Positions 20,613 through 25,956 of a stretch of 64,000 nt of DNA are shown here, piece by piece; position 1 is the first letter of the stretch; every line of letters begins with the position of its first letter. The position numbers and the translations under genes were made by a program. The notes beneath the pieces were generated by a model that was not told the DNA's origin, made no database searches, and saw only the letters and a program-made list of their open reading frames with translations. Origin of the DNA: Hydrogenoanaerobacterium saccharovorans (GTDB taxonomy: Bacteria > Bacillota > Clostridia > Oscillospirales > Ruminococcaceae); contig NZ_JACSNR010000001.1 in the NCBI RefSeq assembly GCF_016901815.1, forward strand, positions 62,001 through 126,000, read 5' to 3'.

Positions 20613-20620
20613 CACAATAT

Positions 20621-20656
20621 AAAAAATCCCCTGTGAAAACTCACAGGGGATTTTTT
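20621..20656. terminator. Bidirectional terminator of V-ATPase and beta-helix genes
   Basis: AAAAAATCCCCTGTGA (20621-20636) and TCACAGGGGATTTTTT (20641-20656) pair perfectly around a 4-nt loop, between convergent genes. Confidence 0.96.
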
Positions 20657-20667
20657 ATTGTATCTAT

Positions 20668-22365
20668 TTACCGTCCGGTATTGGGGTTGGTCTTATTTTC
20701 ATCAGCAGGCTTGGAGGAATCCTCCTCATCGCCCGGAGTTTCGGTAAGCAGCTCGGTCTCGAGCTCCTCAAACTCATACCAGATCTTGTCGATGGAACCA
20801 ATCTCCAGGCCGTTGACCTTATAGGTCACGCCATTCTTGCGGATCTTGAGGGTGATGTCTCTTCCCTTCAGCTCACGGGCTACGCTCGCGGGGAAGTAGG
20901 GCAGGCCGGTGGCACTCATCTCAATGGTTTCACCGAATTCTTCGTCTTCGATCAGTTTGGCGATCTCTTTCTTCACTTCGTCCCACTTCTCGTTGCCGTA
21001 GTAATCGCCATACTCCTGGCTTTCGGTTGCTCCGGTGTCCGGAGTTTCCGGCACAGCTTCGCTGTATTTGTAGCTTGCGGATGCACTCTCCGATGTTACG
21101 GTTTGATAGCTTGCAACAACTTCAACAGAATAGGTGGTATATTCATCTGCAGTCAGCGTTGCACTGGTTTCACCGTCCAGCATTGTGCCGTTTTTGTACC
21201 ACTGATAAGTAAACACAGCTTCTGCCAGCGGATGGGAAGCATTGGCTGTAAGCACATTGCCGGAAGCAGTAATTTCTACCTCAGGAACAGCGATTCCTTC
21301 GGCAGGCAGATACTCACTGACATCATCGCCATTAAAATTACCGCCAGTAATCTGGATGCTGGGATTGGGATTGCCATAGCTGGGGACATTAATAGTACCG
21401 ACACTGATATCAAAGGTACCGCCAGAAATGTTGACAGCAGCCGTATCTTCTGCGTGAACGCCATATTTACCGGAAATGGTACCTCCGCTGATATTGATTG
21501 AAGATGTTTCACCGCCGGAAACCGCATAGCTTCCGCTGGTGGACAATTTACCGCCTTCAACATTGAGGACTGTATTTTCCTGAACCTGCACAGCATAGCT
21601 GGAGGATTCGATCTCTGCTGTACCTCCGATTGTAACGGTAGCACCCTTATAAAGCTGGATTGCACCGCTCGCACCGCCAGTATGGGTCAGTGTTCCACCG
21701 GTCATGGTAAACTGGATGGAGTCCGGATCTCCATAGTTGGAGATATACACACCTGTACGTCCATCACTCCGCATATCACCGTCTGTAATTTTAACCACTG
21801 TGCCGCTTCCGCGTACGCCAAGAACGTTGTCTTTAGTACTGATCAGAGAGCCTCCGGATATTTTGATGGTGGAATTCGTGGCTGAATCATAGATATCCAC
21901 TGTCTCCAGGGTGGTACGAATGGTGCCGCTCTTCAGTTCAAAAGAACTGCCGGAACCTTTGAGCTGAATTCCATATCCATAGGAGCCATCTGTGACATCA
22001 ATTTTGCCATTGCCCTTGGAATCCTCTATGGTCAGAGATCCCCCATTGATCACAAATATAAAGTGATTTAATCCTCCATAACTCTTGGTAATTGTACATC
22101 CATTCAGATCCAGCACGACATCTTCCCGGATGACAATGTCATATCTGCGATCCATGGTAATATCGCCGCCAAGCTTGACCTTACCGCCAGCTTCCAGCGC
22201 AGACTTCAGCCCGTCTGCATTTGTAACAGCAACCTCAGTATCACCGTTTTCCAATACAACAGCTGCAGAGCCGCTTCCATCAGTTCCATCCGCAAAAGCA
22301 ACTGTCAGTCCGGAAACACTCATCAGTGCTGCCAACACAAGCGCGAGTAACTTTTTCTTGTTCAT
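20668..22365 (-). CDS. Secreted right-handed beta-helix repeat protein
   Basis: 565 residues. Signal peptide M-N-K-K-K-L-L-A-L-V-L-A-A-L..A-F-A-D (cut near residue 24), then about 300 residues of short Gly/Ser/Thr-rich repeats with recurring I-S-G-G-T and T-I-G-G patterns, typical of a parallel beta-helix. An Ig-like module (T-Y-Q-W-Y-K-N-G) covers about 385-450, followed by an acidic region. The protein stops at N-P-N-T-G-R. That resembles an N-P-x-T-G sorting motif but lacks a membrane anchor after it. Start: GGAGG 9 bp upstream of ATG 22365; 18 upstream in-frame codons have no RBS. Its promoter contains a slippage-prone G tract. Role unknown; adhesion or polysaccharide binding would fit. 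Confidence 0.8.
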   Translation of the reverse strand: MNKKKLLALVLAALMSVSGLTVAFADGTDGSGSAAVVLENGDTEVAVTNADGLKSALEAGGKVKLGGDITMDRRYDIVIREDVVLDLNGCTITKSYGGLNHFIFVINGGSLTIEDSKGNGKIDVTDGSYGYGIQLKGSGSSFELKSGTIRTTLETVDIYDSATNSTIKISGGSLISTKDNVLGVRGSGTVVKITDGDMRSDGRTGVYISNYGDPDSIQFTMTGGTLTHTGGASGAIQLYKGATVTIGGTAEIESSSYAVQVQENTVLNVEGGKLSTSGSYAVSGGETSSINISGGTISGKYGVHAEDTAAVNISGGTFDISVGTINVPSYGNPNPSIQITGGNFNGDDVSEYLPAEGIAVPEVEITASGNVLTANASHPLAEAVFTYQWYKNGTMLDGETSATLTADEYTTYSVEVVASYQTVTSESASASYKYSEAVPETPDTGATESQEYGDYYGNEKWDEVKKEIAKLIEDEEFGETIEMSATGLPYFPASVARELKGRDITLKIRKNGVTYKVNGLEIGSIDKIWYEFEELETELLTETPGDEEDSSKPADENKTNPNTGR

Positions 22366-22436: not shown

Positions 22437-22465
22437 ATTATACCCCCCCCCCGGCATTTTGTCAA
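22437..22465 (-). promoter_or_regulatory. Consensus promoter with homopolymer in the spacer
   Basis: On the minus strand TTGACA (22460-22465) and TATAAT (22437-22442), both perfect consensus, are separated by 17 bp of which 10 are G (complement of 22443-22452). The nearest downstream gene is the beta-helix protein. Confidence 0.88.
22443..22452. repeat. C10/G10 homopolymer tract
   Basis: Ten consecutive C on the plus strand, the longest G/C homopolymer noticed in the window, positioned between the -10 and -35 boxes of the beta-helix gene. Confidence 0.97.
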
Positions 22466-22524: not shown

Positions 22525-22553
22525 TTGACTTTCCGATCAAATTGCTGTATTAT
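22525..22553 (+). promoter_or_regulatory. Sigma-A promoter of the thiamine-uptake operon
   Basis: TTGACT (22525-22530), 17-bp spacer, TATTAT (22548-22553), placing the start of transcription about 15-20 bp before the TPP riboswitch. Confidence 0.85.
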
Positions 22554-22576: not shown

Positions 22577-22689
22577 ATAGCCAGGGGCGCTGGGAGATCA
22601 TTCCCGGCTGTGATTGGCGCGAAACGCAGCGCCATGTCCCTTGGTGGGAAACCACCTGAACCTGATCCGGATAATGCCGGCGGAGGTAT
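22577..22689 (+). ncRNA. TPP riboswitch (THI element)
   Basis: The aptamer shows the class-defining blocks: AGGGGCGC at 22583-22590, GCTGTGA (variant of GCTGAGA, changed only at the flipped-out A position) near 22607, CCCTT, then ACCTGATCCGG-ATAATGCCGGCGGAGG at 22659-22686. P1 is short (ATAGCC/GGTAT with one bulge). It precedes an intrinsic terminator and a thiamine-type ABC operon, so ligand binding should favour termination. Confidence 0.93.
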
Positions 22690-22728
22690 GCGCTTTTGCT
22701 CCTTTGGGAGACAAAACACAAAATTCTT

Positions 22729-22834: not shown

Positions 22835-23131
22835 ATGAACGCAAGTCTCGCAATCCAGATCCTCCCCAAGGTACAGGGCGATGAAGAAGTATGCCGTGTT
22901 GTGGATGAAGTAATCGCTTACATCCAGTCCACCGGTCTGCACTGCTTTGTAGGCCCCTGTGAAACCGCTGTGGAAGGTGATTTCGACACCATTATGGAGA
23001 TCGCCAAGCAGTGCCATCTGGTGGCTATCAAGGCCGGCGCTCCCAGTGTCAGCTCGTATCTGAAGATCAGCTACCGTCCTGAAGGCGAGGTTCTCACCAT
23101 TGACAAGAAGACATCCAAGTATCACCAGTAA
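22835..23131 (+). CDS. Thiamine-binding-fold protein (MTH1187/YkoF family)
   Basis: 98 residues, ferredoxin-like fold of the thiamine-BP/DUF77 family, proposed to bind thiamine or its HMP precursor in the cytoplasm. Typical start N-A-S-L-A-I-Q-I-L-P and a C-F-V-G-P-C-E-T-A-V-E-G-D-F-D segment near residues 35-50. AAAGGAG lies 11 bp upstream. The 3' end overlaps the permease gene by 32 bp. The TPP riboswitch upstream fixes the pathway as thiamine uptake or salvage. Confidence 0.87.
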   Translation: MNASLAIQILPKVQGDEEVCRVVDEVIAYIQSTGLHCFVGPCETAVEGDFDTIMEIAKQCHLVAIKAGAPSVSSYLKISYRPEGEVLTIDKKTSKYHQ

Positions 23132-25759: not shown

Positions 25760-25772
25760 TTCGTAAAAAGTT

Positions 25773-25934
25773 GATAGAGGCGCGGCCGCGATGAGTATCC
25801 GTGGGGAGAAGACATTCTGTGATCCCGGAGAAAGGCAGAGCCGCCGAAATGTATCAGCCGGTAAGCTGATATGTTGGGGTATGGAGAAAGACTTCATACA
25901 CTCCCGTCCTGGTATACAGGGCGGAGGCGCTATC
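25773..25934 (+). ncRNA. Lysine riboswitch (L box)
   Basis: P1 is GATAG (25773-25777) with CTATC (25930-25934). Inside are the family blocks AGAGGCGC at 25776-25783, ATGAGTATCC near 25791, GGAGAAAG..GCCGCCGAA at about 25829-25848 and GGGCGGAGGCGC before P1 3'. The order and spacing match known lysC-leader aptamers, with long P2 and P4 arms. A terminator follows after 22 bp, so lysine should switch the operon off. Confidence 0.92.
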
Positions 25935-25956
25935 GGTGGTAACTCTTTTGAGCTCG

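Follow-up and report, generated by a model that had tools for sequence, protein, structure and literature searches.

The promoter and its surroundings

The stretch of DNA analysed here (the window, 64,000 nucleotides of Hydrogenoanaerobacterium saccharovorans) carries on its minus strand a gene for an exported surface-type protein of 565 amino acids (20671..22365, with the stop codon at 20668-20670), which begins with the signal peptide MNKKKLLALVLAALMSVSGLTVAFA. A GGAGG ribosome site lies just 5' of the ATG at 22365, and about 70 bp 5' of this start codon is a promoter (22465..22437, minus strand) that reads TTGACA AAATGCC GGGGGGGGGG TATAAT. Its -35 box (TTGACA, 22465-22460) and its -10 box (TATAAT, 22442-22437) match the consensus at 12 of 12 positions, and the 17-bp spacer between them is formed by AAATGCC and a homopolymer of ten G (22443..22452, minus strand; C10 on the plus strand), the proposed slippage switch, which directly abuts the -10 box. 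The two perfect boxes, the 17-bp spacer and the G10 tract had been described in an earlier, sequence-only reading of this DNA and are confirmed, with the addition of the minus strand, which that reading had left unstated. The gene is followed on its 3' side by a hairpin of 18 pairs with a U tail (20619..20658, minus strand) that resembles an intrinsic terminator and is terminator-like on both strands.

The intergenic region is common to this promoter and to the divergent promoter of a thiamine transport operon (TTGACT-N17-TATTAT, 22525..22553, plus strand), which has no G tract. A TPP riboswitch-like element (22634..22705, plus strand; 39.8 bits against an Rfam gathering score of 54.3) lies 5' of the gene for a thiamine-binding protein (22835-23131) and of ABC transporter genes; this element is a neighbour of the proposed G-tract switch and lies outside it. 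Further along the window (25767-25940), a lysine riboswitch (99 bits) was observed 5' of an APC-type amino-acid permease.

The claim that the gene encodes an exported protein with a beta-helix is supported by the signal peptide, by a right-handed beta-helix core predicted at about residues 44-300 (pLDDT of approximately 75-95 over residues 41-280), and by weak Foldseek matches to beta-helix proteins (AlgE epimerases, tailspikes and the SRRP of L. reuteri). The C-terminal module (residues ~438-565) is common to paralogues and ends in NPNTGR (window 20671-20688). Searches of Pfam and NCBIfam gave no convincing family for this protein or for the family-B proteins described below, and plasmid sequences searched with the window region gave no match.

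At the scale of the window, the G run alone is unremarkable: shuffled sequences contain on average 2.7 G9 matches, and the observed 2 were reached in 65 of 100 shuffles. Perfect promoter pairs number three, versus 0.03 expected. Since the G run is not significant at this level, genome-wide tests were used.

A genome-wide set of G-tract promoters

The source genome (G000) has 2.35 Mb in 65 contigs, C1, C2, C13 and C64 among them. On its two strands there are six runs of at least nine G, and each of them immediately precedes the TATAAT of a promoter whose -35 box is TTGACA or TTGACG; the six genes behind them all encode signal-peptide proteins. Spacers of perfect promoters make up approximately 2.5e-4 of genome positions, which puts the chance of finding six of six tracts there at about 1e-22, or about 1e-16 when ten times more promoters are allowed. 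The pattern GGGGGGGTATAAT occurs nine times in this genome, and a search with GGGGGTATAAT also returned nine sites, with tracts of G7 to G11; the latter search found no G5 or G6 forms, all sites having at least seven G. A pattern with spare bases between the G tract and TATAAT had no match, because the tract abuts the -10 box.

The nine promoters combine different tracts and spacers. The window promoter (C1:84k) has G10 and 17 bp; the other four on contig C1 have G10 and 19 bp (C1:281k), G7 and 14 bp (both C1:349k and C1:356k), and G9 and 15 bp (C1:445k). Those on C2 have G10 and 16 bp (C2:231k), G9 and 18 bp (C2:255k), and G11 and 18 bp (C2:272k), and the one on C13 (C13:198k) has G7 and 11 bp. 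Eight of them precede signal-peptide proteins, which belong to two families, and the ninth, C13:198k, precedes an amino-acid permease. The sequence-only reading had proposed a phase-variable promoter at the window locus: its logic stands and is strengthened by paralogue promoters that differ mainly in tract length, but its scope was too narrow, the window promoter being one of nine in this genome.

Sister species and wider distribution

The layout recurs in both sister species of the genus, in a comparison of one genome per species with near relatives outside the scans. Candidatus Avimicrobium faecavium (G001) has nine such promoters, including one G6 (at C65), and the third species (G002) has eight, which gives 26 G-tract promoters over the genus; the GTDB 220 loci L089 and L109 belong to the G001 and G002 assemblies, respectively. 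The tracts of at least nine G in the three genomes are all at a -10 box except three, all of them in G002. In this last genome, two G9 runs were observed at C17:276 and C20:15471 (L259 and L260) within a near-palindrome, TATAC-G9-TATA, that has no -35 box; these runs are possibly coding or assembly-related.

This recurrence bears on the notion that the tracts are artefacts, with homopolymer length distorted by assembly or sequencing, or that a G run arose by chance. The assemblies are drafts (65, 160 and 50 contigs) and homopolymer length is error-prone; sequencing problems with poly-G have been reported (PMC9187656), and the tract lengths given by the assemblies may be miscalled or truncated. 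Nevertheless, independent assemblies of three species place the tracts at the same promoter position, where every tract of at least nine G in the source genome and G001, and the majority in G002, is found, and an artefact could touch the exact length of a tract only, not its presence. We consider this explanation extremely improbable.

Beyond the genus, GGGGGGGTATAAT was found in 13 of 295 further genomes of the family, with one to three sites each, and the same pattern read backwards, as a control, occurred once among 298 genomes of the family. A wide scan of 85,000 named genomes with TTGACA-N4..10-G8-TATAAT, which is a sample and not a census, yielded at least 119 stretches. Among the matches listed, metagenome-assembled genomes (MAGs) of gut Clostridia and Bacilli are the majority, and Streptococcus, Blautia, Saccharibacteria, Treponema, Helicobacter and Streptobacillus are also represented. 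The viral collection IMG/VR contained one unrelated promoter of this kind (L087:2319-2344, TTGACA-ATA-G11-TATAAT), before a small membrane-type protein, so that promoters of this type may also be present in phages or prophages. The earlier statement that such a switch is rarely described in gut Clostridia agrees with our searches of the open literature, in which no report of promoter-spacer G tracts in Clostridia was found and the nearest gut example was Bifidobacterium breve (PMC9187656); the architecture itself is common in sequences of gut Clostridia and Bacilli.

Genes behind the tracts

Most G-tract promoters of the genus serve two gene families. Family A, which includes the window gene, joins varied N-terminal modules to a common C-terminal region; the N-termini comprise the beta-helix of the window protein, an internalin-like LRR (C1:281k) and FIVAR (in G002). 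Family B is formed by proteins of 330-605 amino acids with NPDTGR or IPDTGR at the C-terminus, for which structure prediction was of low confidence (pTM 0.46) and gave no clear fold match. In most complete proteins of both families (the window protein, L025-L083, L256 and L258), the very C-terminus was observed to be [NI]P[DNS]TGR, with no membrane anchor after it; this motif resembles a signal for sorting or attachment. The gene behind the ninth promoter encodes an AA_permease_2 transporter, whose G001 orthologue has a promoter with G9 and a spacer of 16 bp, versus G7 and 11 bp here.

Two further observations concern these families. The source genome has a fourth family-A paralogue (L266:1200-2100, on C64) with the promoter TTGACG-N16-TATAAT and no G tract, and its reading frame appears to be broken by a frameshift near L266:1895. 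The family-B promoters (L025-L083) are followed by a common 5' UTR with a GC-rich hairpin-like stretch, GGAGAGC...GCCC, 20-60 bases 3' of the tract, a possible conserved leader RNA.

The association with exported proteins extends across the wide sample. Among the matches listed, 65 of 97 readable genes behind G-tract promoters encode a protein whose N-terminus is signal-like and that has no more than two membrane spans, versus 4 of 20 genes behind perfect promoters without a tract (p = 1e-4) and 15 of 73 behind near-perfect ones (p = 2e-9) at the same loci; signals were detected with a simple rule based on hydrophobicity, equal for all promoter sets.

These data allow the proposal to be weighed that the tracts are neutral relics of one G-rich promoter that was copied along with duplicating surface genes and has no switching function. 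Families A and B are indeed paralogous sets, and their promoters can be aligned within each family. Against this, the layout also precedes unrelated genes, families A and B and the permease being three unrelated gene families with the same promoter layout, and in other Clostridia, Bacilli, Streptococcus, Saccharibacteria and Treponema it stands before varied surface-type proteins; moreover, the tracts are uninterrupted despite diverged flanks, and across taxa they are strongly associated with exported proteins. A neutral relic thus seems most unlikely, if slightly less so than an artefact.

Spacer length and tract-length differences

The usual optimum of promoter spacing is 17 bp. This spacing is present in 5 of the 26 G-tract promoters of the genus, versus 36 of the 61 other perfect promoters of the source genome (Fisher p = 0.0009), although the 26 sites represent fewer independent events, because paralogous promoters have common ancestry; in the source genome alone, one of nine G-tract promoters is at 17 bp (p = 0.01). 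The G-tract spacers of the genus range from 11 to 19 bp, versus 16-18 bp in 54 of the 61 other perfect promoters, and tract lengths range from 6 to 11 among otherwise alike promoters. From this range of spacers, transcription is likely to depend on tract length. In the wide sample (matches listed, lineages pooled), 53 spacers are of 18 bp, 28 of 16 bp and 14 of 17 bp, and the optimum for a G-rich spacer may be 18 rather than 17 bp.

Closely related copies differ in the tract. In G001, the promoters of C50 and C96 align over 225 bp with 21 substitutions and no indel, and have G8 versus G10 and spacers of 15 versus 17 bp. In the source genome, C1:445k and C2:272k have four substitutions in 99 upstream bp, G9 versus G11, and one extra C before the tract. 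A rabbit-gut Bacilli MAG (L130) and L169 are 95% identical over 209 bp and have G9 versus G8. In G002, C21 and C25 are 99% identical and their tracts are equal in length (both G9). In addition, each of the three species has one family-B gene with a perfect promoter whose spacer is non-repetitive and exactly 17 bp (C2:203k in the source genome); the three genes are not reciprocal best hits, so strict orthology is not claimed. Such genes indicate that the family does not need a G tract for transcription.

A different interpretation treats the G tract as a fixed part of the promoters of a surface-protein regulon, for instance a rigid spacer or a regulator site, whose length is held by selection without any switching. 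Several features agree with it: in every case the non-template strand carries the G's and the tract touches the -10 box, a search for C-tract spacers in the genus found none, the flanking AAAGTGC(C) is conserved throughout family B, and tract lengths cluster at G9 among the wide-scan matches listed. The predominance of G8 and G9 among those matches means, in fact, that some tracts may be stable. However, a fixed element fits poorly with tracts of 6-11 G among otherwise alike promoters, since the resulting 11-19-bp spacers are expected to include very weak promoters, with the members of the same family that have a non-G 17-bp spacer, and with near-identical promoter copies that differ mainly in tract length. 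We regard it as unlikely, though it is the strongest of the alternatives considered.

Comparison with known systems

Homopolymer tracts in promoters have been described in several bacteria. In Neisseria meningitidis, porA has a poly-G tract between the -35 and -10 boxes and its transcript level tracks the number of G (PMC3899988). The promoters described here share with it the poly-G spacer and the surface protein, but porA is a single gene of a Gram-negative bacterium, whereas the clostridial anaerobe studied here has nine such promoters, in three gene families, and their tracts directly adjoin a perfect -10 box; the likeness is one of sequence anatomy and gene type, the tract-length differences seen here being between paralogous copies and between species. 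Each vlp gene of Mycoplasma hyorhinis has a poly-A tract in its promoter, and expression is combinatorially ON or OFF (PMC10502178). Both systems are multigene surface families with a promoter tract for each member, but the vlp tracts are poly-A and serve lipoproteins of a wall-less host, while those found here are poly-G and serve non-lipoprotein exported proteins of two families and a permease. As in the porA and vlp class, a homopolymer lies between the -35 and -10 boxes and surface or contingency genes lie downstream (signal peptide, beta-helix, LRR and FIVAR, with signal enrichment).

In Treponema pallidum, variable poly-G promoter tracts of the tpr/tprL surface-protein family alter promoter activity, and short tracts, of 8 G or fewer, allow transcription of tprE/G/J (PMC7864442); poly-G promoter tracts and a surface-protein family are common to both cases, and here the tract fills the spacer. 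In Bordetella, a C-stretch in each promoter of the surface-subunit genes fim2, fim3 and fimX affects transcription, and the model proposed is based on the distance that separates the -10 box from the region bound by an activator (PMC1891110); several surface genes with a homopolymer in each promoter are again found, but in fim the tract is poly-C and an activator site takes part, whereas no such site was identified in the present promoters. Among gut commensals, G-tract slippage in sortase-pilus genes of B. breve has been measured by deep sequencing; the tracts studied lie in coding sequence, where they cause frameshifts, and other tracts in promoter spacers are remarked on (PMC9187656). The likeness is in the commensal habit and the surface genes, but the B. 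breve tracts are in coding sequence and the phylum is another. For Clostridioides difficile, a recent review describes phase variation by promoter inversion (PMC11868660); the anatomy of the window promoter gave no hint of an invertible promoter, in which inverted repeats flank the promoter and a recombinase is close by.

Proposed mechanism

The promoter anatomy, its recurrence, the enrichment of surface genes, the broadened spacers and the length differences between near-identical copies, all directly observed, point to phase variation of surface proteins by slipped-strand changes in promoter spacing as the best explanation, to which we assign a probability of roughly 80%. Slipped-strand mispairing during replication would add or remove G's in the tract, a changed number of G would alter the distance between the -35 and -10 boxes, and the altered distance would modify the strength of the sigma-A promoter. 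We infer that slippage takes place within one strain and affects transcription in this manner. With nine loci, each with its own tract, variation would be independent, so that a clonal population would hold many combinations of surface proteins, along with one amino-acid permease, at any time; judging from its promoters, the bacterium probably varies its cell surface at random. Considering spacing only, the window gene (17 bp) would be ON, C2:231k (16 bp) and C2:272k (18 bp) would be expressed at intermediate to high levels, and a low or OFF state would be expected of C1:445k, C1:349k, C1:356k and the permease. The benefit would be evasion of phages or antibodies, or niche evasion. Loss of mismatch repair was considered as a cause of raised slippage and rejected: the genome carries an intact mutS, which does not suggest a general mutator state.

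Implications for gut bacteria

Phase variation in gut bacteria has been studied mostly as DNA inversion. The present case is a known type of mechanism in a new host group, in unusually systematic use. The broader proposal is that poly-G spacers at the -10 box serve widely, in a manner not described until now, to diversify sets of surface proteins in gut Clostridia and Bacilli and in some Saccharibacteria and spirochaetes, with nine independent switches in this genome, and that uncultured commensals are as phase-variable as the classic mucosal pathogens; we give it an even chance of being correct. If the proposal is true, clonal gut populations hold a hidden surface diversity, which short-read assemblies collapse to one consensus length, and a promoter set based on slippage could be relevant to phage resistance, to IgA targeting and to differences between strains.
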